DNA of 62,391 bases. Source: a virus. The position numbers and the translations under genes are program-made. Below, in pieces: positions 22,685-51,682 of this stretch. The notes below the pieces were generated by a model. That model was not told where the DNA came from. It did not search any database and saw only the letters and a program-made list of their open reading frames with translations. The stretch spans positions 1 to 62,391 of the IMG/VR virus record IMGVR_UViG_3300046004_001609. The stretch is one strand, 5' to 3'. The number at the start of each line of letters is the position of its first letter. The stretch's first letter is position 1.

Positions 22685-23131
22685 ATGAATAATTGGTTAT
22701 ATGAAAATAAAGTTATAGAAAAAATTGAAGATTTCCCTGAAAATACATTTGGATTTGTTTATAGGATAACAAACCTAACAAACGACAAATTTTACATAGG
22801 TAAAAAACAATTGCTATCTCAAACTAATGTTAAATTAGGTAAAAAAGAAATAGCAGCACTCCCAACTCAACGTGGTAGAACTCCATCTAAAAAATTAGTA
22901 GTTAAAGAATCTAATTGGCAAGAATATTGGGGTAGTTGTAAACCACTACATGAGGATCTTAAAAAATTAGGAGCGGACCATTTTAAAAGAGAAATATTAA
23001 TGATATGTAAATCAAAAAAATTACTTACATATTACGAAGCGGCATTTCAAATTAAAGAAAATGTATTGTTAAATGAAAATTATAACGATACAATTCTGGG
23101 TCATTACTATAGAAAAGACTTCCTATCTTAA
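22685..23131 (+). CDS. GIY-YIG family nuclease (SegE-like), 148 aa
   Basis: Residues 23-28 GFVYRI and 37-39 YIG, with the following KKQL, match the GIY-YIG nuclease core as it appears in T4 SegE-type enzymes. Downstream NWQEYWGSC and the Glu in TYYEAAFQIKE (about residue 120) are where the family has its conserved aromatic, Gly and metal-binding Glu. Such proteins are often homing endonucleases of phage genomes, and the location at the border of the tail module and the replication genes fits. No DNA-binding extension is seen, so it could be a host-DNA or repair nuclease. Confidence 0.75.
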   Translation: MNNWLYENKVIEKIEDFPENTFGFVYRITNLTNDKFYIGKKQLLSQTNVKLGKKEIAALPTQRGRTPSKKLVVKESNWQEYWGSCKPLHEDLKKLGADHFKREILMICKSKKLLTYYEAAFQIKENVLLNENYNDTILGHYYRKDFLS

Positions 23132-24919: not shown

Positions 24920-24927
24920 TATTGGGA

Positions 24928-25842
24928 ATGGTATCTTTAATTCAGCTTTTAAAAGAAATAATTATTAATGAAGGTGGCAATGTATTTAAAAATACAGAGT
25001 ACGACACTCAAGATATACTATTAGCAAATATTGAACCCACAATTAAAAAATTTGTAGATGATTTAGGTAAATTATTTCCAAATAAAAGATCTACATTTTC
25101 TGAATTAACAAGTAAAAGTAATTGGTTAGGTTCAACTGGAAATAAACCACAATCAGGCGACGTAGATATAGCTTATTCATCAGAACATTTTTTTAAAAAT
25201 AAACAAGCCGATGTTGAAGGTTGGGGAATAGATAGAAACGAATATACCCAATTATACGAAAAAAGTAAAAAGGCGGCTCGCTCAGCAACTGATGATCAAA
25301 TTCAATTAAAATCATTAATTCAATTAATTGTTAAAAAAATTAATGCTAGTGGAGGAGATTTATATGCTAGCGATAAAGCATCAGGAGCAGGGTCTATACA
25401 TTTTTCTTATCCTCAATATGCTACTTCAGGAGAAAAATTAGATTCTAGATCCCAATTAGACATGGATATTGGAGATATGGATTGGTTAAAATTTAGATAT
25501 AATTCTGAATTACCAAAAGATGATCCAAATATTAAAGGTTTACATAGAGGGCAATTAATGTTAGCTATGTTTGCAGCTTTAGGATATACATTTAAAAGTG
25601 GTAGAGGATTTGTTCGTAAAGAAACAGGTGAAACTATTGCTGATAAACCTAAAGAAGCATTAGAAGTATTTAATAAAGAATATAATCCAAAACAATCATT
25701 AACTATGGATGTAGTTAACAATTATGTTAAATTAATGAGTTATATTAAAACTAATTTAAAACCTGAAGACCAAACTAAAACATTAGATATGTTTAAAGAG
25801 GCTGTAAGAAGAGCAGGAGCATATGTTCCTGACAATATTTAA
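24928..25842 (+). CDS. Polymerase-beta-type nucleotidyltransferase with capsid-targeting-like peptide, 304 aa
   Basis: The ATG at 24928 is preferred to an upstream TTG. The N-terminus MVSLIQLLKEIIINEGG is an amphipathic peptide ending in INE-G, a plausible prohead-protease site. The nucleotidyltransferase signature is LGST (67-70), then D78-V-D80 in SGDVDIAYS. A third acidic strand lies near 180 (QLDMDIGDMDW), with further conserved-looking GLHRGQLMLAMFAALGYTFK. The family transfers nucleotides to proteins, RNAs or small molecules; the target is unknown. Six bases separate it from the next gene, which has a second domain of the same superfamily. Confidence 0.7.
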   Translation: MVSLIQLLKEIIINEGGNVFKNTEYDTQDILLANIEPTIKKFVDDLGKLFPNKRSTFSELTSKSNWLGSTGNKPQSGDVDIAYSSEHFFKNKQADVEGWGIDRNEYTQLYEKSKKAARSATDDQIQLKSLIQLIVKKINASGGDLYASDKASGAGSIHFSYPQYATSGEKLDSRSQLDMDIGDMDWLKFRYNSELPKDDPNIKGLHRGQLMLAMFAALGYTFKSGRGFVRKETGETIADKPKEALEVFNKEYNPKQSLTMDVVNNYVKLMSYIKTNLKPEDQTKTLDMFKEAVRRAGAYVPDNI

Positions 25843-25847
25843 TTACT

Positions 25848-28211
25848 ATGAGTGGAGCAGCAGGCGGATCACGTATAAATAAAGAGGATTTAAAAACAAC
25901 AATCCGTGACTATAGAGATAACATCTTAAAACCATTAGGACTAGATAAATCTTATAATATCACTGGTGTACGTTCTAGACCTGAAAAAGATATATTTGGG
26001 GATATAGACATTGTTGTATCGTTTCCTGAAGGTGATAAAAAAGAACTTAAGCAACAATTTGCTAGTTTCTTAACACAAAACGATAAAGTTCCAGTTATTC
26101 CGTCTAAAAATAAAAAATACTTTATACATGGTAATATTGTTTCTACATTATATCCTATAGCAAATAAAGAAGGAGAATATGTTCAAATTGACAATATAGT
26201 AACAGTTACTAAAGAAGAAGGTAAATTTGCTTTTCAAATGTTAGATTTACCCGCCCAAGAACAAACATTAGCTATAGGTTTAGTTAAAACAATATTTACT
26301 GAATTAGATGAAAAACAAGTAGAAAATTTATTTAATGATTTAGGTATTGCAAGTTCTGAAAAACCAGGTGAAGGTGAAGAATATGATTTTAATTTAAACC
26401 CAGCAGAATTAACTTTAAGGATTGTTCCTGTAGGTAAAAATGAGGGTAAACAAATATGGAAGTCAAATAGCTTTGAAGATGTTAAAAAAATATTACTATC
26501 ATTAGGTATTAATATTGAAAAAGATAAATTTGAAGATATTGTATCTAAAATTAAAAAATTTAAAAATAGAAGATCTATAGATCGCCTTAAAGGAATGTTT
26601 GCTAAAAATATACGTGTTGGCGATGCTGAAAAAGAAATTGAAAAAGGTATTAAAAAACAACAAGCATTAGATACAGTAGCTTCTTTAGAGGAAAAATATA
26701 ACCCATTAATAATGGGATTAATTAAACCATTTATTTTAGAAGATATTAATACACAACCTACTATAGCTATATTTCCAGGTAAATTTAAACCACCACATAA
26801 AGATCATTTAGCTCGTATACAAGCAGCGGCAGCCGATGCTGATGAAGTATATGTATTAGTTTCTCCAAAATCCTCAGAAGAAAAACCAAACCAAAAAACT
26901 ATAACTGCTCAACAAAGTGTAGCATTATTTGATTTATATCGTAAAAAAGGATTAATACCTAGTAATGTTAAAATATACATATCTGATAATTTACCTTTTA
27001 AAGGAGATAATGATGAACAACTATCATTTAATTCCCCAGTAAAATCAGCATATGAAATAATGGATAAAAAGGTTGGACCAAATTATATAGCTGTATTTGG
27101 AAAAGAAGAAGATTTAAAAAGATTTGGAAAAGTACCTAAAAACACAGTTGTTAAAAATTATGATGGCTCAGCAGGAAATTTGAGCGCTACAGATTTAAGA
27201 ATTGCTTTAAAAAATGATCAAGATGTTTCTCAATTTCTTCCTAAAGATATAGATACATCTGATATTTTAAAAGAACACTGTGGATGTGATGATTCATTAC
27301 CAACTACATTAAAGGATGCAATGTTATCATTGACTACATATATGATAGAAAATGATATGAATGTATTACCTTTACCTAAAATTAAAATAATAGACAACGA
27401 TTCTGAAAACGCTAATGGTATATTTGGTAAAACAGCATATTATAATCCAAATGAGTGTTCAATAACGTTATTTACATTGAACAGACATCCAAAAGATGTA
27501 TTGCGTTCATATTCTCACGAAATGATTCATCGTATTCAAGATAATGAAGGTAGATTAAAAAATATTAATACTACTAACACAAATGAAGATGATGAGTTAC
27601 TTGAATTAGAAAAAGAAGCTTATTTAAACGGAAATATTACCTTTAGAAATTGGGAAGATAATTTAAAAAATAATATAAATGAATGGATTGTTGATATCCC
27701 AAAATATAATTACACTCAAAAGCTTTCAAATAAAATTTTTTCTCAACTTTATGAATTAAAAGTAAATGAAATAACTCTTAATCCGAACAATGCTGTTGAA
27801 ATATATGGTGATTTAAATAATGGAGATTTTACTGTGGGGGAACATGATTATAATTATAGAATAATAAAATTGGATAAAAATCCATATAGTAGTAATTCAT
27901 TTTATAGTATTGATTTTCATGAAATTGGAAATAAAAATCCCAATCCTTCTTTACCAACAAAAAATGCTAGAGAAAATTATATAAAAATATTATCAACAAT
28001 ATATAAAATTATATTAGATTTTACTAAAGAAGAAAAACCAGAATATATAGGAATATCAAGTTTAGATGAAAGTGGATACGGAAATATTTACAATAACTTA
28101 ACCAAAACAAATAAACTTCCAGGGTATTCAAGAAAAGATGCAGGTTTAAATTTTACATCCAAATCAGGAGAAAAAGGAAAATTTATAGTACTAAAAAGAA
28201 CAGATGTATAA
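25848..28211 (+). CDS. Three-domain fusion: nucleotidyltransferase, NMNAT-like, HExxH metalloprotease, 787 aa
   Basis: Residues 30-240 form a pol-beta-type nucleotidyltransferase with D52/D54 (FGDIDIVVSF). Residues about 240-300 are helical and end LIKPFILED, an amphipathic stretch with an ILE cleavage-like site. Residues 300-470 form a cytidylyltransferase-fold domain: FPGKFKPPHKDHL stands for the HxGH motif (here HKDH) and NLSATDLRIAL for the ISSTxxR motif, as in nicotinamide-nucleotide adenylyltransferases. Residues 480-610 contain YSHEMIHRIQ (about 555-564) and LEKEAY (about 585-590), a zincin-like protease core. The last 170 residues are unrecognised. The gene overlaps the HAD gene by 8 bases. 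It could be a polyprotein cut by the prohead protease. Confidence 0.7.
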   Translation: MSGAAGGSRINKEDLKTTIRDYRDNILKPLGLDKSYNITGVRSRPEKDIFGDIDIVVSFPEGDKKELKQQFASFLTQNDKVPVIPSKNKKYFIHGNIVSTLYPIANKEGEYVQIDNIVTVTKEEGKFAFQMLDLPAQEQTLAIGLVKTIFTELDEKQVENLFNDLGIASSEKPGEGEEYDFNLNPAELTLRIVPVGKNEGKQIWKSNSFEDVKKILLSLGINIEKDKFEDIVSKIKKFKNRRSIDRLKGMFAKNIRVGDAEKEIEKGIKKQQALDTVASLEEKYNPLIMGLIKPFILEDINTQPTIAIFPGKFKPPHKDHLARIQAAAADADEVYVLVSPKSSEEKPNQKTITAQQSVALFDLYRKKGLIPSNVKIYISDNLPFKGDNDEQLSFNSPVKSAYEIMDKKVGPNYIAVFGKEEDLKRFGKVPKNTVVKNYDGSAGNLSATDLRIALKNDQDVSQFLPKDIDTSDILKEHCGCDDSLPTTLKDAMLSLTTYMIENDMNVLPLPKIKIIDNDSENANGIFGKTAYYNPNECSITLFTLNRHPKDVLRSYSHEMIHRIQDNEGRLKNINTTNTNEDDELLELEKEAYLNGNITFRNWEDNLKNNINEWIVDIPKYNYTQKLSNKIFSQLYELKVNEITLNPNNAVEIYGDLNNGDFTVGEHDYNYRIIKLDKNPYSSNSFYSIDFHEIGNKNPNPSLPTKNARENYIKILSTIYKIILDFTKEEKPEYIGISSLDESGYGNIYNNLTKTNKLPGYSRKDAGLNFTSKSGEKGKFIVLKRTDV

Positions 28212-28731
28212 ATTAACAGATATATATCGACAAATTAAAGAAGAAGAAGCACTTCCAACACAACAATACAAAATATATTGTGACATGGATGGTGTATTAT
28301 GTGACTTTGATAGACAATTTGAACAATATGCTAGAATAAGTCCTAAAGCATTTGAATCTAAATTTGGAACAGATAAGTTTTGGGAATTAATAGATAAAAT
28401 AGGTTACATATTTTGGTCTAAAATACCTTGGATGTCAGATGGTAAAAGTTTATGGACATATATTAGTAAATACAAACCCGATTTATTATCAGCTCCATCA
28501 CAAAAGGCATCATCACGCTATGGAAAACGTTTATGGGTAAGTGAAAACATACCAGGAGCTAAATTAATATTAGCTGACAGAGAAAAAAAACAAAATTATT
28601 CAAAGAAAAATTCAATACTTATTGATGATCGCCCTGACACCATTAGTGAATGGAATAGTAGGGGAGGAATTGGTATATTATTTACATCAACAGAACAAAC
28701 AATTAATGATTTGAAAAAATTGGGCTTATGA
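28204..28731 (+). CDS. HAD-superfamily 5'(3')-nucleotidase-like phosphatase, 175 aa
   Basis: The N-terminal 15-residue amphipathic leader MYKLTDIYRQIKEEE precedes the HAD motif I at D27/D29 (CDMDGVLCDFD). SAPSQKASSRYGKRLWVSEN holds the motif-II/III region, and SILIDDRPDTISEWNSRGG (about 137-155) holds the motif-IV Asp pair. The cap FESKFGTDKFWELIDKIG is small, as in the mitochondrial-type deoxyribonucleotidases. It likely dephosphorylates nucleotides. The gene overlaps both neighbours by a few bases. Confidence 0.85.
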   Translation: MYKLTDIYRQIKEEEALPTQQYKIYCDMDGVLCDFDRQFEQYARISPKAFESKFGTDKFWELIDKIGYIFWSKIPWMSDGKSLWTYISKYKPDLLSAPSQKASSRYGKRLWVSENIPGAKLILADREKKQNYSKKNSILIDDRPDTISEWNSRGGIGILFTSTEQTINDLKKLGL

Positions 28732-29315
28732 AAATATGTAGTAAATGCAATATAGGTAAACCAATAGGTGAATATTATAAAAACTCGGGTAATACTTTAG
28801 GTTTAGATCCTTTATGTAAAGAATGTAAAAAGGAATATAGAAAAAGTAAAGGTTTTAATAAATGGAATTCTAAATATAATTTAAATGTTAATAAAGAATA
28901 TAAAAAAGAATATTTTTTAAAAAATAAAGAACATATATATGCTAGAATAAAAAAATGGAGAAATATCCCTAAAAATAAAATATCATGTATATTAAGAGTT
29001 CAAATAAATAACTATATTAGAAAAGGTAAAGGAAAAAAACACACTTCTGTTATTAATTTAATTGGGTGTGATATACATAGCTTAAAACAATATCTAGAAC
29101 AACAATTCAAACCAGAAATGACTTGGGAAAATCATGGGATAATATGGGAAATAGATCATATTAAACCATGTTCAAGTTTTAACTTAGTAGATATAGAGCA
29201 ACAAAAACAATGTTTTCATTATACAAATCAACAACCATTATTTAAGACAACTGAGATAGCCTATAGTTATGGGTATATTAATGAAATAGGAAACAGAGAT
29301 AAAAATAATAATTAA
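28728..29315 (+). CDS. HNH endonuclease (homing type), 195 aa
   Basis: An N-terminal zinc ribbon has CSKC (4-7) and CKEC (about 32-35) and a basic linker. Residues about 139-171 contain IIWEIDHIKPCSSFNLVD and the closing NQQPL, the HNH His-Asp and Asn positions. This combination is typical of free-standing phage homing endonucleases. It overlaps the HAD gene by 4 bases and may be an inserted selfish gene; no disrupted reading frame is visible on either side. Confidence 0.85.
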   Translation: MKICSKCNIGKPIGEYYKNSGNTLGLDPLCKECKKEYRKSKGFNKWNSKYNLNVNKEYKKEYFLKNKEHIYARIKKWRNIPKNKISCILRVQINNYIRKGKGKKHTSVINLIGCDIHSLKQYLEQQFKPEMTWENHGIIWEIDHIKPCSSFNLVDIEQQKQCFHYTNQQPLFKTTEIAYSYGYINEIGNRDKNNN

Positions 29316-33540: not shown

Positions 33541-34254
33541 ATGAAACACGCAGATCTTATAAAACGATTAATCAAAGAGGCATTATCTAAGCCGCTTAAA
33601 GAAGATACATGCAATTGTGGTTGTCATTCATGTGAAAATGTAGGTAATAAGGGTCCAGTACTTAACGAAAGTTTAGGTGCTCGTATATTAATGACCGAAA
33701 ATATGCAATACCATGTTAAAAATAAATTAGCAATTACTGAAAATACATTCAGATATGGTTCGCAAGCATTTTTAGATTTATGGGCTGAAGCGCGTTATTT
33801 ATATTCTCGCAATGCTATTCATTTAAATGATGATGATAAAGCAATTATATTAGAAACGAATTTAGGTGAATATGGAATGTTTGAAGGTAAAAAAGTAGCC
33901 TTAGACATACCTATGTTAGAAGATGATGCATTAGCAGCAGACGAAGAAAAAATTGCTGACGAACCTATATCAGAAGATAAAAAAAAGAATCCACCATTAA
34001 ATAAACCAAAACGTGGTGGATCTAAGAAATTTTATGTGTATATAAGAGACAAAGGTAAAATTAAAAAAGTTAGCTTTGGTGATACATCAGGATTATCTGC
34101 AAAAATAAATAACCCACAAGCACGTCAAGCATTTGCAAAACGTCATGACTGTGCTAACAAAAAGGATAAAACAAAAGCATCATATTGGAGCTGTCGCTTA
34201 CCTAGATATGCTAAATTATTAGGAATTAAATCAACATTTAGTGGATATTGGTAA
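33541..34254 (+). CDS. Capsid-targeting-like protein with conserved phage RHxC domain, 237 aa
   Basis: The N-terminal peptide MKHADLIKRLIKEALSKPLK is followed by ED. A Cys cluster CNCGCHSC near residue 22-29 may bind metal. The C-terminal 80 residues (SKKFYVYIRDKGKIKKVSFG, INNPQARQAFAKRHDCANKK, ASYWSCRLPRYAKLLG) form a domain widespread in tailed phages, with spaced Cys, His and Trp, whose function I cannot name. The stop overlaps the next gene as TAATG. Confidence 0.7.
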   Translation: MKHADLIKRLIKEALSKPLKEDTCNCGCHSCENVGNKGPVLNESLGARILMTENMQYHVKNKLAITENTFRYGSQAFLDLWAEARYLYSRNAIHLNDDDKAIILETNLGEYGMFEGKKVALDIPMLEDDALAADEEKIADEPISEDKKKNPPLNKPKRGGSKKFYVYIRDKGKIKKVSFGDTSGLSAKINNPQARQAFAKRHDCANKKDKTKASYWSCRLPRYAKLLGIKSTFSGYW

Positions 34255-34625
34255 TGGATAAACTTAGAAAATTAGTTAGAGAAGAAATACTTAAAGCATT
34301 AAGTGAAGGCTCTGAAGAAAAATTGTATAAAATTGAAGGATTACTTGTTTCAGATAATAACAAGAAAACACAATCTCAATTATTATCAGATATCCGTGCG
34401 ATAACTGGTGTTACTACAATTGATACTAATGAATATATACCTCGCTTACCCAAAGAGAACCGTTCATATAATAGATTAATGGTTAAAATAGATCCATATC
34501 CTTATTTAAAAAATGGCGAATTTAATATAGAAACACTTAATCAAGTTATTAATAACATTAATAATATAGTTGGTGTAGTTACATTTAAAGTTAAAAATCC
34601 ACAATTGATTAATATTGGGATATAG
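34254..34625 (+). CDS. Small protein with capsid-targeting-like N-terminus, 123 aa
   Basis: The ATG at 34254 overlaps the previous stop; the open frame upstream from a TTG is not needed. MDKLRKLVREEILKALSEGS has an LSE-G junction typical of the recurring peptide. The body (KIEGLLVSDNNKKTQSQLLS, DIRAITGVTTIDTNEYIPRL, NRLMVKIDPYPYLK) looks like a ferredoxin-like alpha/beta domain, with VVTFKVKNP as its last strand. Confidence 0.7.
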   Translation: MDKLRKLVREEILKALSEGSEEKLYKIEGLLVSDNNKKTQSQLLSDIRAITGVTTIDTNEYIPRLPKENRSYNRLMVKIDPYPYLKNGEFNIETLNQVINNINNIVGVVTFKVKNPQLINIGI

Positions 34626-35079
34626 TGATTAAATTAACAGACATATTAAAAGAATTACTCCTTGAAGATCGTTGTAAACGAATTGCTGATCGTAAGTATG
34701 ATAAACCATCTGCTTACAAATCAGGTGCTATTGTTAGGTGTCGTAAAGGTAATATTTGGAAAGATTTAAAAGAAACAGATAACCCACAATCAGGTAAAGC
34801 TACTCCATATGGATCAGGATATGCTAAAGTTAAAGAGGTTATTAAAAAAATGTTAAAAGAAGATAAATCTTTACGTAAATGGTTTTCACGTAAAGGTGCC
34901 CAGGTAAAAAAGGTGGATGGGTTGATTGTAATACTTGTCGCGAAGTAGATGGTAAAACAAAATGTAAAGCATGTGGTAGAGAAAAAGGCGAAAAACGCTC
35001 AAAATACCCATCATGTCGCCCCACACCATCTCAATGTAAAACACCTGGTAAAGGTAAAAAATGGGGAAAAACAAAATAA
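34625..35079 (+). CDS. Frame-shifted small basic protein, 151 aa if joined
   Basis: The first reading frame starts at GTG 34625 with MIKLTDILKELLLEDRCK, a capsid-targeting-like peptide with an LLE-D site, and runs through LRKWFSRKGA. It then drifts into non-conserved QVKKVDGLIVILVAK. The -1 frame from 34900 instead reads PGKKGGWVDCNTC, KCKACGREKGEKRSKYPSCR, PTPSQCKTPGKGKKWGKTK, a Cys- and Lys-rich ending I recognise from phage proteins that have KxWF-GAPGKKGGW in one frame. The junction is GGTGCCCAGGT (34895-34905); one extra C would restore the frame. It is either a programmed -1 shift, a mutation or a homopolymer error. Confidence 0.75.
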
Positions 35080-35118: not shown

Positions 35119-37920
35119 ATGGAAAACACGTACAAATTCATAACACACGTAATAGGAAATTTATTCCCACTTAACGAATACTCAGATGGTGAGATGAAAA
35201 GGTTAATGGATAAGTTTAAAGAGGAAGCTGATGACTTAAACATTAAAATTTCAGACGAACAACTTAAAAAATATATTGAACGTTTTGATCAATTAAAAAA
35301 TTCACCTAAAATTGAGGAAAAAGATTTACGTAGATGGCCTTTATCTAAATTAATTAAATTAGTATCTTCATCTGAAGGAGCAGATTCTGAAGAAGAAGAA
35401 GGTCCAGATGTAATATATAGTGAAAACGGGTATACTGTTTATAGTGGTGGAAATGAAGAATTATGTCAAAGACATAGAAATGATGTTCCATGGTGTATAA
35501 CTAGAGGTTCATTTGGAAACTATAGATACAGTGGAGGTAAAGGTTACCCATCATTTTACTTAATAAGTAATACTAATCTGCCAGAAAGTAATAAATTAAG
35601 TTTTGTTGCTATTCAAGTTAGAGATGAAGAGGAAAATCGTAAATATGTTTGGACCCCTAGAGATAACAGCCCAAATGAATCTTCACCAATGGGATGGAGT
35701 ACATTAACTTCAGATATTCCTTGGTTAAATGAAATTCCTAATATCAAAAATATACTTAAAAATGTTCCTTTATCATCAAAAGAAAAAGCAACTCAGGTAT
35801 ATAGTAAATCTGGAAGTGAAATATCTATACGTCAATGGGTAAGTATGCCCTTTAACGAAAAAAAGCAATATTTAGTAGTTAGAAAAAAAAGCAAAATATT
35901 TAATGATATTACAAATGAAGAATTTGTAGCTAATTACTTACCTAACTATCCTCAATTAGCGGCATTCGCAGCCGTTACTCCTGGTGTAGTAGATCCAATG
36001 TTATTACTCAAAAATTTAGATAAATTTTCAGCTAATGATAGAAAATCTATAACTGCTAATTTACATAATTTAGTAGATATAAAAGAATTACAAAAAGAAA
36101 CATTACCATTTGACGTTAAAAAATTATTAACTATTTTAAACAAGTGGGATCTTAAAAATGACGAAAGAATATATGTAACCAAAAATGGTGAAGCTATAGT
36201 TAAGTTAACATTTGGATCAGACATTAATGTAGGAGTTTTTACAGCAGAAGATGATTATCCAAGTATTAAATTAAATAAAAGAACAGCTAAATTTTTATTA
36301 GATTATCCTAAAATAGATGAAATTCCATTTAATAATTTAATTAAATTAGCTAGTGCAGATATAATAGATAAAGATTTTATTACTAAAGTTCTCCAAAAAG
36401 CAGAACAAGACCCAAATTCAGCCATTATAGTTAAAGATACTGAAAATGGTAAAATTTTATTAGATTCAAATTCATTTACTTCTTATAAAATTGAAGGAGA
36501 TAAAATTTCCCCAATCCTATTTAGTAGTGATGAAGTACAAAATATATTAGCATCAGAAACTGAAAATAGTGGCTTTCAAAAATCAGCAGTAGATTTAGTA
36601 TTTGCAGAAGAAAATATACCCGACCAAATAGATAAAGATTCATTTCTTAGTATATTAAAGAATACTCCATATGATAAAAGAACAAAAGATGGTATTGTAA
36701 TAATTCCGTTAGAAAATGGTATAGGGGCATTTAATACAGATGCAGCTCAAGGCAATCCATTTCAATTTTTATATGGTGTTGATCGTCCATGGAATGAATA
36801 TATTAACTATACTCCGAGATTAACAGCAGACATTTGGAGAGAATATTTTGCTTATTTAAGAAATAAAAATGCATCATACACCGATGAACAATTAATGAGA
36901 GTTCTTAATAATTTACCTTCTCAAAGAAAAGCATTTGTAGAAGCATTACCACCAATGGTTGCTGGTAGTATGTACAAACCAGCAATTTATGAAAATGAAG
37001 CTTATCTTGTTAATACTAGAAATCCAAGAGATAGTAAGAGAATATCGGGTACTGGCAAAATAGTTAAAGGAGCATTATCATCATCTCAAGCAAGTAGAAT
37101 ATTAGGAACAACAGTTCAAGCACCAGCAGGACAAGCTCAAGCAGCACCTGCAGCAGCACAACCTGGAGTACCTAGAAGAGGAAGACCAGCAGGAGTAGCA
37201 GGTGCACCTAGACCAGTAGCTGCACCAGCAGCAGGTGGAACACCAACATTTGAATTAATGGTTGGAAGAGGTTTAGAAACAGCATTTAATGGATTACCTA
37301 GACCAGTTAGAAATAGATTAGTAATAGCTACACAAGAAACAGGTTTATCTAGAGGAGCTTCTCGCCGTAATAATCAATTAGGAAATAGAGGTAGAGTTGT
37401 GAGTACTTGGAATTCTGGACCTAGTAGCATATATTTTATTAGATTAACTAATGGTACTATGATAGCATCAATTAATATACAACCAGGAAATGGCAATTAT
37501 ATACTTATTCCAGGCCAAGAATACGTTAGATTAAATTCACCAACTGAATTACTATCAGCATTACAAGCAAGAGAGCTAGCTGAAGTATTTATTGCTGAAT
37601 TTATGTCTTCAAATCCAACAATGATTGATGAAACTAAAAAAGTAGTAGATTTTTATAATAGAAAAATTAAAAACAAACCAAATATGAAATTAAATGAATT
37701 AAAAAATCTTATTAAAAATGAGATTAGAGCAGTTTTAGCTGAAAACGCACCCGCAAAGGAGAAAGAAAAAGTAACTACTCCAACTAAAACTCCAAGCAAA
37801 AACCCATTACATCCAAATCCTAATATTAATCCAAAGACTAAACCAAAAGCACAAAAAGAAGGTATGTCTAAAGGAATAGCTGACATTGTAAAAAAATATA
37901 AATCATTAAAAAAGAAATAA
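35119..37920 (+). CDS. Large multi-domain protein with internal capsid-targeting-like peptide, 933 aa
   Basis: Residues about 95-200 contain YTVYSGGNEELCQRHRND, VPWCITR and YPSFYLISNT. This looks like a domain seen in phage and plasmid proteins with a Cys...WCT/WCI motif followed by a short-chain sandwich. Residues 200-660 are helical repeats without a name. Residues about 664-712 are an Ala/Pro/Gly-rich linker (AGQAQAAPAAAQPGVPRRGR). Then comes a compact domain with FELMVGRGLETAFNGLPRPV and RNRLVIATQETGLSRGASRR. Residues 856-877 read MKLNELKNLIKNEIRAVLAE then NAP, the recurring peptide placed internally, followed by a basic Pro/Lys tail. It could be a polyprotein or a head protein that is trimmed during maturation. 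Confidence 0.65.
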   Translation: MENTYKFITHVIGNLFPLNEYSDGEMKRLMDKFKEEADDLNIKISDEQLKKYIERFDQLKNSPKIEEKDLRRWPLSKLIKLVSSSEGADSEEEEGPDVIYSENGYTVYSGGNEELCQRHRNDVPWCITRGSFGNYRYSGGKGYPSFYLISNTNLPESNKLSFVAIQVRDEEENRKYVWTPRDNSPNESSPMGWSTLTSDIPWLNEIPNIKNILKNVPLSSKEKATQVYSKSGSEISIRQWVSMPFNEKKQYLVVRKKSKIFNDITNEEFVANYLPNYPQLAAFAAVTPGVVDPMLLLKNLDKFSANDRKSITANLHNLVDIKELQKETLPFDVKKLLTILNKWDLKNDERIYVTKNGEAIVKLTFGSDINVGVFTAEDDYPSIKLNKRTAKFLLDYPKIDEIPFNNLIKLASADIIDKDFITKVLQKAEQDPNSAIIVKDTENGKILLDSNSFTSYKIEGDKISPILFSSDEVQNILASETENSGFQKSAVDLVFAEENIPDQIDKDSFLSILKNTPYDKRTKDGIVIIPLENGIGAFNTDAAQGNPFQFLYGVDRPWNEYINYTPRLTADIWREYFAYLRNKNASYTDEQLMRVLNNLPSQRKAFVEALPPMVAGSMYKPAIYENEAYLVNTRNPRDSKRISGTGKIVKGALSSSQASRILGTTVQAPAGQAQAAPAAAQPGVPRRGRPAGVAGAPRPVAAPAAGGTPTFELMVGRGLETAFNGLPRPVRNRLVIATQETGLSRGASRRNNQLGNRGRVVSTWNSGPSSIYFIRLTNGTMIASINIQPGNGNYILIPGQEYVRLNSPTELLSALQARELAEVFIAEFMSSNPTMIDETKKVVDFYNRKIKNKPNMKLNELKNLIKNEIRAVLAENAPAKEKEKVTTPTKTPSKNPLHPNPNINPKTKPKAQKEGMSKGIADIVKKYKSLKKK

Positions 37921-38977: not shown

Positions 38978-39415
38978 ATGAATAACTTTGATTTAAGAAA
39001 ATATTTAACTGAAGGTAAATTATATGAGGCAGCTATGTCTTGTCCTTTACCCACTCAAAATTTAGAACTTAACACTAAAAATAGAGACTCATCCATTAAA
39101 GCAGATTATATTAAATATGGTCCTTTAAATGTTGATGAACCTGGAGATTTCTGGGAAGAATTAGCAGGACATTGGGATACAACGGTTGAAGCTGCTCAAC
39201 AATCTTTATGTGGTAATTGTGCTGCATTTGATATATCTCCAAGAATGGAAGATTGTATGCCTGGATCATTATCAGATGATGATGGTAAACTAGGATATTG
39301 TTGGATGCATAGTTTTAAATGCCATTCAGCTCGTACTTGTAGAACATGGGCTAAAGGAGGTCCTATAGTTAAAGATGTTATATCTTATGATTGGCAAGAA
39401 CGTAAAGGAGAATGA
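38978..39415 (+). CDS. Cys-rich, metal- or Fe-S-binding protein, 145 aa
   Basis: The leader MNNFDLRKYLTEGKLYEAAM has an LTE-G junction of the recurring class. The C-terminal half holds eight Cys in order: CGNC (about 83-86), C98, C112, C119, C125 and neighbours, in CGNCAAFDISPRMEDCMPGS, LGYCWMHSFKCHSARTCRTW and AKGGP. Spacing resembles small iron-sulphur or zinc proteins of T4-like phages. It may carry a redox or structural metal site. It overlaps the next small gene by 4 bases. Confidence 0.65.
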   Translation: MNNFDLRKYLTEGKLYEAAMSCPLPTQNLELNTKNRDSSIKADYIKYGPLNVDEPGDFWEELAGHWDTTVEAAQQSLCGNCAAFDISPRMEDCMPGSLSDDDGKLGYCWMHSFKCHSARTCRTWAKGGPIVKDVISYDWQERKGE

Positions 39416-39558
39416 TTAAACTAATAGATATATTAAAAGAATTAGTAACCAAAACAGAAATCATTTGTGATAACTGTGGGTGGAGATGGAAAATTGTAGA
39501 TGGTGGAGATGATTTATACATTTGTCACAAATGTGGACATGACAATACCCCAGAATGA
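39412..39558 (+). CDS. Zinc-ribbon micro-protein with capsid-targeting-like leader, 48 aa
   Basis: This gene is short but clear. MIKLIDILKELVTKTE is the amphipathic leader. The rest is one zinc ribbon, CDNCGWRWK (about 19-27) and CHKCGHDN (about 38-45), with Trp-rich spacing and the ending NTPE. The same ribbon recurs in many T4-like phage genomes. It is embedded in an overlap chain (start inside the previous gene, stop overlapping the next by 4 bases), which supports translation. Confidence 0.75.
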   Translation: MIKLIDILKELVTKTEIICDNCGWRWKIVDGGDDLYICHKCGHDNTPE

Positions 39559-39815
39559 CCCCATACACCGACATAGAAGTTACTGATAAATACATTATTC
39601 GTGAATTTGATGAAAACATCGATCCAATCGAATTAATGTGGCATCGTGATGATGAAAGTCGTACATTAGAAATAATTGGTGAAACAGATTGGAAAATACA
39701 GTTAGATAATAAATTACCGATCTTACTAGAAAGCCATATATTTATACCAAAACACGAGTATCATAGAGTAATTAAAGGTACAAAAACATTAAAATTAAAA
39801 ATATACAAAAAATGA
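39555..39815 (+). CDS. Small cupin-like conserved phage protein, 86 aa
   Basis: The sequence has a single beta-barrel-like pattern: YIIREFDENIDPIELMWHRD, DESRTLEIIGETDWKIQLDN, KLPILLESHIFIPKHEYHRV, IKGTKTLKLKIYKK. The WHRD...GW...P...IP...YHRVIKG order is one I associate with small single-domain cupins of cyanophages and other T4-like phages. Function is unknown. The start overlaps the zinc ribbon gene. Confidence 0.65.
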   Translation: MTPYTDIEVTDKYIIREFDENIDPIELMWHRDDESRTLEIIGETDWKIQLDNKLPILLESHIFIPKHEYHRVIKGTKTLKLKIYKK

Positions 39816-40432
39816 GTAAATTAAGACAACTAATCCGCGAATCAATTACTAATTATATTAGTGAAATAAATGAGGCGGGAGATATTTCAGCTTGTGAGTC
39901 AAAAATATTAAAAACTCGAGAAGCTATTGAACTTCGTGAAAAGAAAATAAGTAAGGAGGGCATCGATGAAGCTTATCATGATATGCTTGATGAAAACAAA
40001 TTAAAAGAATTTGCTAAAGAAATTAAAATATTAGAGAAAAGTTTAGCTAAACATGAAAAAATGTTAGAAAAACTTAAATCAAAAGCTAATAAAGGAGAAA
40101 AAGTAGAAGATACTGAAGAAAAAGAAATCGTTGATGAAGTTTCAATTGATGAAAACGCAGAAGATGGTCCATATAAAGTAGATCCAAAAGATAGAAAATA
40201 TTTATCAATGCCAGGAATGGAAAATTTTGATGAAGATGAAAGATTTGATGCTGATGGCACTCCAAACGAAGAAGGAATGTATGATGCAGAAGGAAATCGT
40301 ATTTCATTTGCAGATATTGATAAAGCAATGTATGATGGAGAAGCAGAATATATGAATGAATCATTTTTACACATGCAAAAATTAGCTGGTGTAATTACTG
40401 AAGCACAATACAAAGATAAGTTAAAGAAATAA
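39812..40432 (+). CDS. Capsid-targeting-like acidic protein, 206 aa
   Basis: The leader MSKLRQLIRESITNYISEIN contains ISE and NEA candidate sites. A long charged coil follows (LDENKLKEFAKEIKILEKSL and KHEKMLEKLKSKANKGEKVE), then an acidic disordered part. The C-terminal helix ends FLHMQKLAGVITEAQYKDKL, a segment shaped like the start of the same class of peptide. It resembles internal head or core proteins in composition. It ends the operon at a terminator. Confidence 0.65.
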   Translation: MSKLRQLIRESITNYISEINEAGDISACESKILKTREAIELREKKISKEGIDEAYHDMLDENKLKEFAKEIKILEKSLAKHEKMLEKLKSKANKGEKVEDTEEKEIVDEVSIDENAEDGPYKVDPKDRKYLSMPGMENFDEDERFDADGTPNEEGMYDAEGNRISFADIDKAMYDGEAEYMNESFLHMQKLAGVITEAQYKDKLKK

Positions 40433-40488
40433 ATTTTTATAGAACACATTCATTGCGTGTTCGAATATAACAAAGTTAAAGGAGTAGT

Positions 40489-40523
40489 GGCCTGATCTTA
40501 TTTAAAGGATCGGGCCTCTTTAA
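40489..40523 (+). terminator. Intrinsic terminator
   Basis: GGCCTGATC (40489-40497) pairs with GATCGGGCC (40508-40516) with one G-U pair and a 10-base loop, and is followed by TCTTTAATTT. A smaller hairpin GAACAC/GTGTTC lies just upstream (40442-40462). Confidence 0.8.
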
Positions 40524-40555
40524 TTTGGCTTACTTAATAAAATAACTTATATTTA
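40524..40555 (+). promoter_or_regulatory. Host-type promoter
   Basis: TTTG (40524-40527), 20 bases, TATATTTA (40548-40555). The boxes and spacing are identical to the promoter at 2750. It lies after a terminator and 15 bases ahead of the next ATG, so this operon is probably early. Confidence 0.6.
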
Positions 40556-40570
40556 CTAAAAATAAAGGTT

Positions 40571-41044
40571 ATGAATATATTTTATATTAATGAAGACCCA
40601 ATCATTGCAGCACGTGAGCTGGCAGATGATCATATTAGAAAAATGCAAATTGAATCTGCACAAATGTGTTGTACCGCTCATTGGGAAACAGGTAAAGAAG
40701 CACCATATAAACGTGCTCATAAAAACCACCCATCAACAATATGGGTAAGACAATCTATCCAACATTATAGATGGCTTATAGCTCATGGTTTAGAAATTTG
40801 TAATGAATTTGAAAAACGCTATGGTAAATCTCATAAAACAAAAGAAGTATTAGAATGGTGTAAAATAAATGAACCTAATATTCCTAACAATGAGTTTATA
40901 ACCCCCCCACAATGTATGCCTGATGAATTTAAAGGACCAAATACTTTGGATGCTTATAAAAGATTTTATATATTAGATAAAGTAAAAATTAAAAAATTAG
41001 ATTGGAAAAAATTAAACAACAAACCAGAATGGATAAAAGAATAG
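40571..41044 (+). CDS. Pyrimidine-dimer glycosylase-family protein (Pyr_excise-like), 157 aa
   Basis: The opening MNIFYINEDPIIAARELADD HIRKMQIESAQMCCTAHW, then APYKRAHKNHPSTIWVRQSI and LIAHGLEICNEFEKRYGKSH, reproduces the order of a small phage and virus family related to T4 endonuclease V (DenV). In that family a pyrimidine dimer is excised by glycosylase and lyase activity using the N-terminal amine. Length is 157, against 138 in DenV. The residue homologous to catalytic Glu cannot be assigned by eye. It shares 16 bases with the FAD dehydrogenase gene. Confidence 0.7.
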   Translation: MNIFYINEDPIIAARELADDHIRKMQIESAQMCCTAHWETGKEAPYKRAHKNHPSTIWVRQSIQHYRWLIAHGLEICNEFEKRYGKSHKTKEVLEWCKINEPNIPNNEFITPPQCMPDEFKGPNTLDAYKRFYILDKVKIKKLDWKKLNNKPEWIKE

Positions 41045-42354
41045 TAATTGTAGGAAGTGGGGTTGCAGGTATAAATGCTGCAACTAAATTAGTAGATAAT
41101 GGATACCCAGGTGAACTTATTACTATCATTGATAAAGGAAATGACCCACACAATCGTTTACCTGAAGAAGTAATGACAGGTATGTTAGGAGCAGGAGGTT
41201 GGAGTGACGGTAAATTAACATATCATACTGAAATTGGAGGGCAATTAGCAAAATATTGTGGTGAAGACAAAGCAATGGATTTAATGAAACAAGTAGTAGA
41301 TAACTTTACTCGTTTCCATCCTAAACCAGAAGAAATATCTTTATCCAACCCAATTGAAGAACCAGAATTTATTAAACCATATTTTGGATTACGTTTATTC
41401 CCTGTATGGCATATCGGTTCAAATTATTTACATGAAATTGCTAAAAATTGGTACTCATATTTAGTTGATAAAGGTGTTAAGTTTTTATGGAATGCTGAAG
41501 TGGATAATATATCATTTAAAGATGAAGAGGTTTGTGGATATCTTAATGTACATCAAGGGAAAAGTGACGATGATGTATTTCAAATATTGTACGATAAATT
41601 AATATTCGCAGTAGGCAAATCAGGTATTGATTTTGCTCAAAAATTAGCAGATGACTATAAATTACCTAATGAACCTAAATCAGTACAAATAGGTGTTCGA
41701 TTTGAAGCACCACAAAAATATTTCCAAAAATTAATCGATGTATCTTATGATTTCAAACTTTATCAGAAATTTGATAATATTTCTTTACGTAGCTTTTGTA
41801 CTAACAATAACGCTGCTTATGTGGCTGTTGAAGAAACTTATGGTGATGTTAGTTACAATGGTCACGCCAAAAAAGGAGAACAATTCCGGAACGACATGAC
41901 TAACTTTGGTATCTTAATGGAAATTAAAGGTATTGAAGATCCATTTAAATGGTCAAGAGATGTAGTTGATAAATTACAATCAAATGGAACAGGATTGTAT
42001 TACTCACCAGGCAATACTCGTAAACCAGGATTAACATCAGAATGTACAACTGTATCTGCTACACAAATAGATTGGTTAGAGTTAATTAAAGTAACAGAAG
42101 TGATGAATCCATACTTTGAATATATTGTTAATTTTATTGATGACATGAAAAAGGTGTTCCCTGAAATGGGTGATGATTGGGGAATGTATATACCTGAAGT
42201 AAAATATTTAAGTCCTGAACCATTAGTAAATTATACTGACTTATCATTAAATAAATATCCAAATGTTCATTTTGTTGGTGATGCATTAAGTGCTCGTGGT
42301 ATTACTGTTAGTGGTGCGCATGGAATTTATGTTGCAGAAGCCTTGCTTTCGTAA
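41029..42354 (+). CDS. FAD-dependent dehydrogenase, 441 aa
   Basis: The start MDKRIVIVGSGVAGINAATK (G9, G11, G14) is a Rossmann FAD-binding motif. The ATG at 41029 is chosen because it puts this motif at the N-terminus. The middle holds VWHIGSNYLHEIAKNWYSYL, a substrate-side helix, and a redox-like SFCTNNNAAYVAVEETYGDV. The C-terminus closes the FAD site with NVHFVGDALSARGITVSGAH. The closest type I know is the COG2509-like FAD dehydrogenases. A phage copy of a complete dehydrogenase is unusual. It could modify a small molecule or a nucleotide derivative. Confidence 0.8.
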   Translation: MDKRIVIVGSGVAGINAATKLVDNGYPGELITIIDKGNDPHNRLPEEVMTGMLGAGGWSDGKLTYHTEIGGQLAKYCGEDKAMDLMKQVVDNFTRFHPKPEEISLSNPIEEPEFIKPYFGLRLFPVWHIGSNYLHEIAKNWYSYLVDKGVKFLWNAEVDNISFKDEEVCGYLNVHQGKSDDDVFQILYDKLIFAVGKSGIDFAQKLADDYKLPNEPKSVQIGVRFEAPQKYFQKLIDVSYDFKLYQKFDNISLRSFCTNNNAAYVAVEETYGDVSYNGHAKKGEQFRNDMTNFGILMEIKGIEDPFKWSRDVVDKLQSNGTGLYYSPGNTRKPGLTSECTTVSATQIDWLELIKVTEVMNPYFEYIVNFIDDMKKVFPEMGDDWGMYIPEVKYLSPEPLVNYTDLSLNKYPNVHFVGDALSARGITVSGAHGIYVAEALLS

Positions 42355-42364
42355 TATTTATATT
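42353..42364 (+). promoter_or_regulatory. Late-type promoter motif
   Basis: AATATTTATATT overlaps the end of the dehydrogenase gene by two bases. It departs from the consensus at the last positions. Confidence 0.4.
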
Positions 42365-42365
42365 C

Positions 42366-42407
42366 ATGGAAGATAACGACTACCCTGACTTTATTGAAAA
42401 TTTTTAA
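42366..42407 (+). CDS. Possible 13-aa peptide
   Basis: The frame reads MEDNDYPDFIENF and then TAA, directly under a late-type motif and 9 bases before the next gene. It is acidic and aromatic. It is too short to judge coding by composition; it may be a leader peptide or chance. Confidence 0.25.
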   Translation: MEDNDYPDFIENF

Positions 42408-42416
42408 ATATAAATT

Positions 42417-42719
42417 ATGAAAAACTTAAAAGAACTTGTACGTAAACAGTTAAAGGAAATGGCTCGCCCAGCTCAATCTTATACAATTGGAGACCTAACA
42501 AAAGCTGACACATTAATCAGTTCATATGCTCAAACTGAAAGATTTAAATGGATAGGTAATACAATTCAAATAATAAAAGATGCAGGTGAAACTGGTATTT
42601 TACTTATGGATTTATTAGATAAATTATCTGAAGAATATAGACAAAATAAAACATCACAAGAAATAAATCCACCACTAGGACGTTTAGTAGATAGTGGAAT
42701 ATTAAGAAGAGGTAGATAA
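42417..42719 (+). CDS. Winged-helix protein with capsid-targeting-like leader, 100 aa
   Basis: Residues 1-17 MKNLKELVRKQLKEMARP form the recurring amphipathic leader. Residues 30-100 look like a winged-helix DNA-binding domain (KWIGNTIQIIKDAGETGILL, MDLLDKLSEEYRQNKTSQEI, PPLGRLVDSGILRRGR). The similar wing-helix domain recurs in the 290-aa protein two genes on. Two leader-tagged DNA-binding proteins suggest DNA-bound cargo or regulators delivered with the genome. The gene ends at a terminator. Confidence 0.7.
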   Translation: MKNLKELVRKQLKEMARPAQSYTIGDLTKADTLISSYAQTERFKWIGNTIQIIKDAGETGILLMDLLDKLSEEYRQNKTSQEINPPLGRLVDSGILRRGR

Positions 42720-42726
42720 ATTAGAG

Positions 42727-42751
42727 GGCTTGGATTACCAAGCCTTCATTT
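42727..42751 (+). terminator. Intrinsic terminator
   Basis: Perfect 7-bp stem GGCTTGG/CCAAGCC with loop ATTA, followed by TTCATTTG. It begins 8 bases after the winged-helix stop. The stem also excludes a longer upstream start for the next gene. Confidence 0.85.
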
Positions 42752-42774
42752 GTACATTTACAAAAACAAAAGTT

Positions 42775-43305
42775 ATGAAAATAGGATTTACAGGAACAGT
42801 CTCGGTTGGAAAAACCACATTAGTAAAATCGCTACAAGAATTACCTGAATTTAAACACTATAATTTTTCTACTGAACGTAGTAAATATTTACGTGATTTA
42901 GGTATACCTTTAAATACGGATAGTACATTAAAAGGACAAACAGTATTCTTAGCAGAAAGATGCAGTGAATTAATTCAAACAAACGTTATAACGGATAGAA
43001 CAGTAATAGATGTTATGGCATTTACACTCAATGCTCAATCAATTGACATCGCAGATAAACACGGATTTGAAGAATATGCTTCTCGTTTTATTGATGAATA
43101 TGATTGGATATTTTATGTAAGCCCATCAGGTGTAGGTATTGAAGATAATAATGTACGTACTACAGATGCTGAATATCGTAAACAAATAGATAAAACAATT
43201 AAACATTTATGTTCTTTAAATTTAGACCGTATCCAAAATTTTGGTATTATAACGGGTTCTAATGAGGATAGAATCAGACAAATACAATCTTATTTAAATT
43301 TGTAA
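42775..43305 (+). CDS. P-loop kinase, NadR/AAA_28-like, 176 aa
   Basis: The ATG at 42775 is chosen because it places the Walker A motif GTVSVGKT at residues 7-14 and lies after the terminator hairpin. The pattern KSLQELPEFKHYNFSTERSK, then VITDRTVIDVMAFTLNAQSI, resembles nucleoside/nicotinamide-riboside-type kinases (NadR-like ATPase fold). It would phosphorylate a small molecule. Together with the NMNAT-like domain of the 787-aa protein it could belong to an NAD-related pathway, but the substrate is not shown. Confidence 0.75.
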   Translation: MKIGFTGTVSVGKTTLVKSLQELPEFKHYNFSTERSKYLRDLGIPLNTDSTLKGQTVFLAERCSELIQTNVITDRTVIDVMAFTLNAQSIDIADKHGFEEYASRFIDEYDWIFYVSPSGVGIEDNNVRTTDAEYRKQIDKTIKHLCSLNLDRIQNFGIITGSNEDRIRQIQSYLNL

Positions 43306-43318
43306 TATTTATAATAAA
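43304..43318 (+). promoter_or_regulatory. Late-type promoter motif
   Basis: AATATTTATAATAAA is an exact consensus copy that starts within the stop codon of the kinase gene, 11 bases before the 43330 start. Confidence 0.65.
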
Positions 43319-43329
43319 ACTCTACATAA

Positions 43330-44202
43330 ATGAAACGCAAAGACTTATATAAATACATTCGTACTGAAATTATTAATGAATTAACTGAGGATGCAACAGC
43401 AATGGTAACTAGCAAAGCTGGTACTAAATCAGTATCATATAAAAATCCAACAGAATTAGATGCTTTAAAAAGAGATTCTAATGTATCAAGTATTACTACT
43501 ACAGCAGGTCAAAAAATTAAAGAGGCTCGTAAAGGTAGTAGTATCAAAGCTGGTGAAAATTTTGCTGCTATTAAAAGTGCATATGCCGGTAGTATAATTG
43601 AAAGAATTTTAAATAAAATTGAAGAAGCAGGTGATGCAGGTGTAACACCAAAAGAAATAATGGTGGCTGTAGGTATTAAAGCCCCATCTCAATTAAATCC
43701 AATAATGAGAGAACTTATGGAATTAGGTGCTATTTCAGGTCCACCTCCAAGAGAAGAAGCTGAACCAGAAGAAATTACACCTGAAGATGATTTAGCAAGT
43801 ATCGGCATTCCAAAAGTAACTGACAACCCAGAAGATAAAGAAGTAGATGACGATGAATTAGTTGTAGCGGATGATGAATATTACAAATCAGAAGAGGAAG
43901 AAGATTCAACTGAAGAAGAACCTAAAGTAATAGATATTAAAGCTGCAGATAAAGAAGCTGAAAAAGTAGTAGGTGGAAACTCAAATGCTAAAAAATTATC
44001 TCCTGCAGATGAAGAAAAATATACTAAACTTAAAGCCGGTATAATAGCAAAAATAACAAAAATCAAAAAATTACCAGTGGCAAAACGAGTAACATCAGAT
44101 GACTTTAAAATTTTAAAACAATTAATTGCTAGAGAAGATGTTAAAAAATTATTTAAAGATAAAGGTGTTAGTTTAAAAAATGTAGTTTCAGATGTAATGT
44201 AA
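43330..44202 (+). CDS. Winged-helix protein with capsid-targeting-like leader, 290 aa
   Basis: The leader MKRKDLYKYIRTEIINELTE is followed by D (LTE-D junction). Residues about 88-140 (IERILNKIEEAGDAGVTPKE, IMVAVGIKAPSQLNPIMREL, MELGAISG) are a winged-helix domain similar to the 100-aa neighbour. A long acidic disordered middle follows, then a C-terminal helical domain (LPVAKRVTSDDFKILKQLIA). It is probably DNA-binding. Role as cargo or late regulator is inference. Confidence 0.7.
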   Translation: MKRKDLYKYIRTEIINELTEDATAMVTSKAGTKSVSYKNPTELDALKRDSNVSSITTTAGQKIKEARKGSSIKAGENFAAIKSAYAGSIIERILNKIEEAGDAGVTPKEIMVAVGIKAPSQLNPIMRELMELGAISGPPPREEAEPEEITPEDDLASIGIPKVTDNPEDKEVDDDELVVADDEYYKSEEEEDSTEEEPKVIDIKAADKEAEKVVGGNSNAKKLSPADEEKYTKLKAGIIAKITKIKKLPVAKRVTSDDFKILKQLIAREDVKKLFKDKGVSLKNVVSDVM

Positions 44203-51079: not shown

Positions 51080-51682
51080 ATGAAACCATTACTTATAGAA
51101 GTTACCCCATTTGCTATATCACCACAGTCTCTTAATGAGTCTCGTGATAGAGTATCTGGTAACCCATTAGTTGAAGGTATATTAGCTACGTGTGAAGTAA
51201 AAAACGGAAACGGTAGATATTATCCAAAAGAGTTATGGGATCGTGAAATTGATAAATACAATGTTTTGGTTAGAGAAAATAGAGCATTAGGTGAATTAGA
51301 TCATCCCGACTCTCAAATCATTAACTTAAAAAACGTATCTCACAACATCAAGAAACTTTGGTGGAAAGGGGATAAAGTAATGGGAGCAATTGAAATACTA
51401 CCTACACCATCAGGAAACATCTTAAAAGCACTTATTCAAAGTGGTATTAGCGTAGGTGTATCATCTCGTGGAATGGGTAGTTTAAAACAAGTGGGTGAAG
51501 TATTAGAAGTACAAGATGACTTCGAATTATTGTGTTGGGATTTTGTTTCAACCCCATCTAACCCAGGTTCATATATGACTCCATTAAATGAAGGTAAAAC
51601 AACAACATTAAATCCATATAATAAAGTAGATTCTATTATAACAGAAATACTTTGTTCGAATGGGTCTTGTCCAATATTTTAA
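51080..51682 (+). CDS. gp21: Prohead protease (T4 gp21-like), 200 aa
   Basis: The order RVSGNPLVEGILATCEVKNG, NGRYYPKELW, RALGELDHPDSQII (His75) and ISVGVSSRGMGSLKQ (Ser128/129), then CWDFVSTPSNPGSYM matches herpes-type serine proteases of T4-like heads. The catalytic His and Ser are in place. Length fits T4 gp21 (212 aa). It would cleave scaffold, core and other tagged proteins after (L/I)xE sites. The consensus in this phage is a key test for the many tagged proteins. A terminator follows. Confidence 0.92.
   Translation: MKPLLIEVTPFAISPQSLNESRDRVSGNPLVEGILATCEVKNGNGRYYPKELWDREIDKYNVLVRENRALGELDHPDSQIINLKNVSHNIKKLWWKGDKVMGAIEILPTPSGNILKALIQSGISVGVSSRGMGSLKQVGEVLEVQDDFELLCWDFVSTPSNPGSYMTPLNEGKTTTLNPYNKVDSIITEILCSNGSCPIF

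Follow-up and report, generated by a model that had tools for sequence, protein, structure and literature searches.

The IMG/VR virus record IMGVR_UViG_3300046004_001609 comprises 62,391 nucleotides, all of which (positions 1 to 62,391, hereafter the window) were analyzed. Positions 25,848-28,211 of its plus strand hold an open reading frame (ORF) with an ATG start that encodes a putative polyprotein of 787 residues and is supported as a gene by its relatives and by gp183 of Flavobacterium phage immuto. The identical protein is present in the same frame on two IMG/VR contigs (L002 and L003) from different samples, and the architecture recurs in many relatives, ruling out an assembly artefact.

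The chain comprises four domains, for which we obtained an AlphaFold2 model (alignment of 23 sequences, mean predicted local distance difference test score [pLDDT] 74). A preliminary description made from the letters alone had noticed nucleotidyltransferase, nicotinamide mononucleotide adenylyltransferase (NMNAT)-like, and HExxH protease motifs, and Foldseek, profiles, and invariant residues confirm all three as real domains (motifs GDIDIV at residue 51, HKDH at 317, SATDLR at 446, HEMIH at 557, and EKEAY at 588). Domain 1 (residues 1-281; positions 25,848-26,690, plus strand as for all parts of the gene) has, judging by its model, a Pol-beta superfamily palm fold that includes the G-D-x-D motif and a third Asp, and is of the family-X DNA polymerase-like type, a putative nucleotidyltransferase whose substrate may be DNA, RNA, or protein. 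In Foldseek the model resembles DNA polymerases lambda, beta, and mu, with a best E of 7e-6 over about 218 columns; residues G51, D52, D54, and D115 are invariant in an alignment of 12 relatives, and relatives match Pfam DNA_pol_B_palm (best E 2e-5). Domain 2 (residues 303-475; 26,754-27,272) is HIGH-superfamily and NMNAT-like by profile, although phosphopantetheine adenylyltransferase (PPAT) and cytidylyltransferase profiles match it too. It matches PHROG 395 (E 4e-7), PHROG 3462 (NMNAT; E 1e-6), and, slightly under the curated cut-off, Pfam CTP_transf_like (E 6e-4; 20.5 vs 21 bits), and its own profile is matched by solved NMNAT/PPAT structures (best 3e-9). HKDH (HKGH in several relatives) and LSATDLR correspond to the HxGH and ISxTxxR-type motifs.

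Domain 3 (residues 484-607; 27,297-27,668) is a zincin with HEMIH at 557-561 and Glu588/590. H557, E558, H561, E588, and E590 are invariant in the relatives aligned; HExxH and the downstream Glu are intact. No Pfam zincin family matched this domain above cut-off, the relative L015 matching only Peptidase_M91 at E 3e-3, short of the cut-off, and no zincin-family match was found for it in the PDB. Domain 4 (residues about 643-787; 27,774-28,208) is a DUF6934-like C-terminal module identified by DUF6934 matches of relatives; it has low model confidence and is missing from many relatives. A sequence search with the whole 787-residue protein found no match among solved structures.

The model is interrupted by three breaks with pLDDT below 50 (residues 282-302, 476-483, and 608-642), at which we examined the L/I-x-E motif. 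The gp21 protease of phage T4 cleaves after L/I-X-E, where the capsid-targeting propeptides of internal proteins end, and D as the last motif position abolishes processing (PMC9026906); T4 Alt is cut at ITE-6 and LTE-619 (PMC5694885). The strict motif was therefore fixed beforehand by T4 work and not from the present data. Eight L/I-x-E triplets occur in the chain, ending at residues 155, 282, 298, 476, 586, 612, 636, and 741, and five of them lie inside or at the edge of the three breaks. Joint 1 (residues 282-302; 26,691-26,753) has a predicted helix at 286-296 directly followed by ILE-D, with E298 inside the break. Its sequence, LIMGLIKPFILE in the window and LVMELIKPFLLE in the relative L011, each ending at the candidate cut, resembles the N-terminal tags of stand-alone modules described below. 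Joint 2 is a predicted prohead-protease site, LKE-H at E476 (27,267-27,275), that rests on the model break, the site scan, and other contexts of the same joint, and joint 3 is a similarly predicted site, INE-W at E612 (27,675-27,683), with more candidates at 636 and 641. The preliminary description had placed a possible prohead-protease site at the ILE-D near residue 297, in an amphipathic stretch between domains 1 and 2. The location holds, and splitting of the chain by a prohead protease is the reading we favor on sequence grounds, ILE-D being one of a strong set of L/I-x-E joints. The amphipathic character is weak evidence alone, as the hydrophobic moment is only in the top 14-18% of windows along the protein. 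The further L/I-x-E joints at residues 476 and 612, together with those at 282 and 636, had been missed, as had domain 4 and the modular gene family to which the protein belongs.

Scans of IMG/VR recovered 28 relatives of the whole protein, and the individual modules are more widespread, with >590 stretches for the zincin, about 490 for HIGH, and 278 for domain 1. The 93 unique zincin proteins extracted range in length from 122 to >1762 residues. These proteins are mosaics of domain 1, HIGH, zincin, a second zincin (GRYD), a Zn ribbon, a 'HFFDRLNDPRN' module, HAD phosphatase, DUF5661, DUF6934, an ADP-ribosyltransferase-like module, and a second nucleotidyltransferase, in varying order and number; zincin, HIGH, and HAD modules are also found at gene starts or standing alone. 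The 'HFFDRLNDPRN' module is ~110 residues long, occurs in L011, L015, L026, L062, and L063, and has 28 IMG/VR relatives. The ADP-ribosyltransferase-like module lies within the L056 polyprotein (residues 236-282; Tox-ART-HYD1, E 2e-4, below cut-off) and recalls the injected T4 enzyme Alt. Among 84,980 prokaryote genomes there were five matches to the family, all in contigs of metagenome-assembled genomes, which rules out a cellular origin. Since only these five were found, two of them titled Flavobacteriales or Winogradskyella, the family appears to be phage borne and its host probably belongs to the Flavobacteriales.

The neighboring genes in the window, both on the plus strand, were also called correctly in the preliminary description. 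Upstream, at 24,922-25,842, is a second nucleotidyltransferase, whose fold weakly resembles polymerase beta (Foldseek, best E 1.8e-3) and which has conserved Asp residues; downstream, at 28,204-28,731, is a HAD phosphatase, 5'-nucleotidase-like (PHROG 2643, E 8e-25). With the HIGH/NMNAT-like domain, these two nucleotidyltransferases and the HAD neighbor would suit a multifunctional enzyme of nucleotide or nicotinamide adenine dinucleotide (NAD) metabolism that acts uncleaved in the infected cell, and phages do encode NAD salvage enzymes (PMC9503650). We nevertheless regard such an enzyme as highly improbable. Its partner modules in relatives are zincins, ADP-ribosyltransferase-like, Zn-ribbon, and DUF modules in changing order, and no NadV-type enzyme was found among the window proteins searched, which did not include every ORF. 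The earlier view of a coherent nucleotide-handling cluster finds no support in the relatives, in which the same gene carries a shuffled series of modules (second zincin, ADP-ribosyltransferase-like, Zn ribbon, DUF5661, and DUF6934). Because relatives shuffle unrelated modules, the set looks like cargo or effectors and not like a pathway.

Joints between modules carry the L/I-x-E motif far more often than controls. At curated module starts, where distinct upstream contexts were counted at most 60% alike, [LI]xE precedes the HIGH module in 50 of 52 contexts (control 5.3), the zincin in 37 of 51 (12.5), HAD in 14 of 15 (1.0), the Zn ribbon in 14 of 20 (3.4), and a GTGKKP module in 8 of 11 (0.3). 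The GRYD second zincin has [LIVMF]xE immediately before it in 15/15 cases, though the upstream sequence belongs to different modules. We also defined 645 breakpoints mechanically from an all-against-all BLAST of 127 non-redundant relatives, of which 224 lie near [LI]xE compared with 120 ± 9 at random positions (z 11.6, only a guide and not a probability because breakpoints are not independent). The control motifs gave z of -3.1 for [LI]xD, 0.0 for [LI]xK, 0.8 for [LI]xN, -1.8 for [LI]xQ, 1.1 for [LI]xxE, and -2.0 for [LI]E. A recurring PYGSG linker had a modest site excess (7/15 vs 3.9 ± 1.5), and therefore not all recurring segments are bounded modules.

These figures also bear on the idea that tagged neighbors merely lost their stop codons, so that the sites are relics of former tags and the chain stays uncut or yields separate products from internal starts. 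Some joints do read NE-M (LNEMSQSS), in which the Met could be a former start codon. At joints, however, the Glu persists, as does the L/I at the second position before it, while the surrounding sequence diverges, unlike a relic, and [LI]xD is under control level at joints, so we consider fusion by gene decay very unlikely.

Modules that open a gene carry the motif as well. A HIGH, HAD, or zincin module at a gene start bears a tag such as MNSLVKELIQPLLE, and [LIVMF]xE is at the expected place in 39 of 43 tags of gene-opening modules. One and the same module type has its tag at its own gene start in some relatives and inside a fusion in others. Both neighbors of the polyprotein gene begin with a propeptide-like segment ending in L/I-x-E. 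In the upstream nucleotidyltransferase the tag covers residues 1-17 and ends IIINE before GGNVF, and the first 18 residues are disordered in the model, the fold starting after them. Its 78 tagged relatives have [LI]xE directly before GGNVF in 72 cases, VxE in 3, and TxE in 3, while 8 relatives, immuto among them, are untagged and start M-GGNVF. The downstream HAD gene is fused into a polyprotein in L096 and L186. Across the window, [LI]xE ends at residues 9-28 in 14 of 23 genes at 24.9-44.2 kb (control 5.9 ± 1.9) and in 5 of 20 tail genes (control 3.4). A position-specific matrix of the tag was less informative than this plain test; in the window, its N-terminal enrichment was only three-fold, with 20 of the top 60 against an expectation of 6.7, and without the E column it hardly recovered the E.

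The proposed cutter is a T4 gp21-type prohead protease on the plus strand at 51,080-51,682 (PHROG 207, E 1e-58), 23 kb downstream of the polyprotein gene and adjoining the portal and major capsid genes. Genes for terminase, portal, protease, and capsid lie 16-29 kb downstream of the polyprotein gene; tail genes precede it, and the strand is the same throughout. Immuto has a gp21-type protease too, as do 15 of the 18 related contigs longer than 100 kb; the three contigs lacking it are 105-124 kb and may be fragments. The gp23-type major capsid protein (52,897-54,567, plus strand; PHROG 138) has LLE (9), LLE (35), ILE (51), and VVE (60) in its N-terminal region. The protease itself begins MKPLLIE (LIE-7); T4 gp21 carries a comparable LIE-9 near its N-terminus (PMC9026906), an analogy that suggests self-cleavage.

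The chain also contains a potential protease of its own, and we place the zincin second, behind the prohead protease, as candidate cutter. The protein would then be a self-processing polyvalent protein, cut by its zincin module in the head or after injection, consistent with the intact HExxH and Glu of domain 3 and with the proposal that zincins, as a hub domain of polyvalent proteins, process them (PMC5512222). The enriched joint motif is nevertheless that of the prohead protease, which a zincin would have no evident reason to prefer, and tags with the same motif stand on zincin-free genes, for example those at 24,922 and 28,204, so that zincin self-processing is unlikely.

We think it likely that the gene encodes a head-packaged effector polyprotein, split into single proteins by the prohead protease and injected as separate products. 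This reading is supported by the coincidence of model breaks with L/I-x-E sites, by the occurrence of gp21-type proteases in the window, in immuto, and in most of the large related contigs, and by the excess of [LI]xE before module starts. The chain would be carried into the prohead core during head assembly, probably through capsid-targeting-like helical tags, one of them internal at joint 1. The T4-type protease would then cleave L/I-x-E motifs behind their Glu in the unstructured joints, at residues 298, 476, and 612 and perhaps 282 and 636, yielding four products of about 34 kDa (polymerase-X-like nucleotidyltransferase), 20 kDa (HIGH/NMNAT-like enzyme), 16 kDa (zincin), and 20 kDa (DUF6934-like protein). 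Once released, these proteins would remain with the DNA, enter the host at infection, and modify host targets or counter defence. The modules may travel between phages as joint-bounded cassettes, either fused or as stand-alone tagged genes such as the HAD next door.

Several observations weigh against it. L/I-x-E is short and is present inside folded domains too (155, 586). No [LI]xE was found at residues 9-28 of the 787-residue chain, which thus has no N-terminal tag of T4 type; the comparable segment is internal, at 286-298. An internal targeting tag must therefore be assumed, and we know of none in T4. The strict motif is absent from part of the zincin joints, many joints carry the motif alone and no helical tag, and the reversed control E-x-[LI] was mildly enriched at breakpoints (z 3.6).

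The cyanophages bear on packaging from both sides. Their cytidylyltransferases (PHROG 395; S-PM2, S-CREM2, S-SZBM1) also represent a HIGH-superfamily module in T4-like marine phages, and purified S-CREM2 and S-SZBM1 virions reportedly contain such enzymes, with the caution from the authors that they may be carry-over (PMC10665884, PMC9146016). These virion proteins are placed in the PHROG 395 family by annotation. The S-PM2 gene strongly matches PHROG 395, a family also matched by domain 2; the homologue is only distantly similar to domain 2 and has different partner domains. At 103,025-104,804 of S-PM2, the cytidylyltransferase gene lies behind a KWDGAP-containing ligase-like ORF; UniProt lists a 591-residue S-PM2 protein, and the two may be one gene.

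Other genes of the window include three small ones on the plus strand within 33,541-34,948 (starting at 33,541, 34,248, and 34,625), with N-terminal tags ending LKE, LSE, and LLE. The last of these (34,625-34,948; 107 residues) has a C-terminal NPQSGKATPYGSGYAKV segment that is a recurring linker of polyproteins. Further N-terminal L/I-x-E tags are found on plus-strand genes starting at 38,978, 39,812, 42,417, and 43,330 (38,978-44,202). Close to the C-terminus of a 933-residue protein (35,119-37,920), a tag-like stretch, MKLNELKNLIKNEIRAVLAE followed by NAPAKEK, may represent another joint or a trapped tag. A SegE-type GIY-YIG endonuclease (22,685-23,131; Pfam E 9e-30) lies on one side of the cluster and a small Cys-rich, HNH-like ORF (28,728-29,315) on the other, and both may help its mobility. 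A dehydrogenase (41,002-42,354; PHROG 12409, E 3e-20) and a P-loop kinase-like protein (42,730-43,305) are possible auxiliary metabolic genes, and a 1351-residue protein with N-terminal collagen-like Gly-x-y repeats (56,018-60,073) is possibly a tail fibre.

Beyond the single gene, we lean toward a plug-in cargo system of general character in T4-like phages, probably those of Bacteroidota, in which phages exchange effector modules as cassettes with prohead-protease sites at their boundaries. The modules would be strung into many-unit polyproteins, enter the head by way of internal capsid-targeting tags, and be separated there. An L/I-x-E joint or tag offers a sequence rule that may tell head-packaged phage proteins and polyprotein cut points. 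If so, injected effectors, including Pol-X-like nucleotidyltransferases, zincins, ADP-ribosyltransferase-like modules, and HAD modules, are already on record in hundreds of unannotated aquatic phage contigs. Should internal targeting tags prove real, they would broaden the capsid-targeting model of T4 and point to a way of loading several enzymes into one head.

The domain combination had been considered unfamiliar as a described family. It is not unique, being present in immuto phages and in an unannotated UniProt protein with 57% identity across the aligned region, but we found no identical described fusion in Pfam or PHROG results or in the open-licence literature on polyproteins, prohead protease, polyvalent proteins, and injected effectors. 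Nor did we find a description of module shuffling in a polyprotein whose joints bear the prohead-protease motif, combined with the occurrence of these modules as tagged single genes. Immuto gp183 (MW353175), the isolated-phage relative, is annotated 'nicotinamide mononucleotide adenylyltransferase' and shares the same domains at 36% identity over 78% of the query, and the two phages agree in gene order (primase, exonuclease, nucleotidyltransferase, polyprotein, HAD). It differs in its length of 907 residues and in a C-terminal GRYD second zincin that replaces the DUF6934-like module, and the upstream nucleotidyltransferase of immuto lacks the tag of its window counterpart.

Polyvalent proteins are large multidomain phage proteins with unrelated enzyme activities, often including a zincin, that are predicted to be injected with DNA (PMC5512222). 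The 787-residue chain is similar in uniting unrelated domains (Pol-X-like nucleotidyltransferase, HIGH nucleotidyltransferase, zincin, DUF6934-like) and in the placement of its gene near late or virion genes. In contrast, Iyer et al. (2017, PMC5512222) list pol-beta nucleotidyltransferases for conjugative elements only, do not mention a HIGH-superfamily nucleotidyltransferase, do not describe prohead-protease joints or tags, and assign processing to the zincin. Splitting of such proteins by their own zincins was thus the earlier proposal, and the evidence here points to the capsid protease. The ejection proteins of phiKZ and SPN3US, processed by S/A-x-E proteases, are comparable in that several head proteins are cut, some at multiple propeptide sites; in the accounts consulted, these cuts trim propeptides instead of dividing a chain into several enzymes. 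T4 internal proteins (IPI-III) and Alt share with the window phage a short tag ending in L/I-x-E and a gp21-type protease in the genome, and are effectors delivered with the DNA (PMC9026906, PMC5694885), whereas packaging is proposed here. In T4, each effector has a gene to itself and a terminal tag, whereas the window phage chains its putative effectors, with the tags or sites placed internally.
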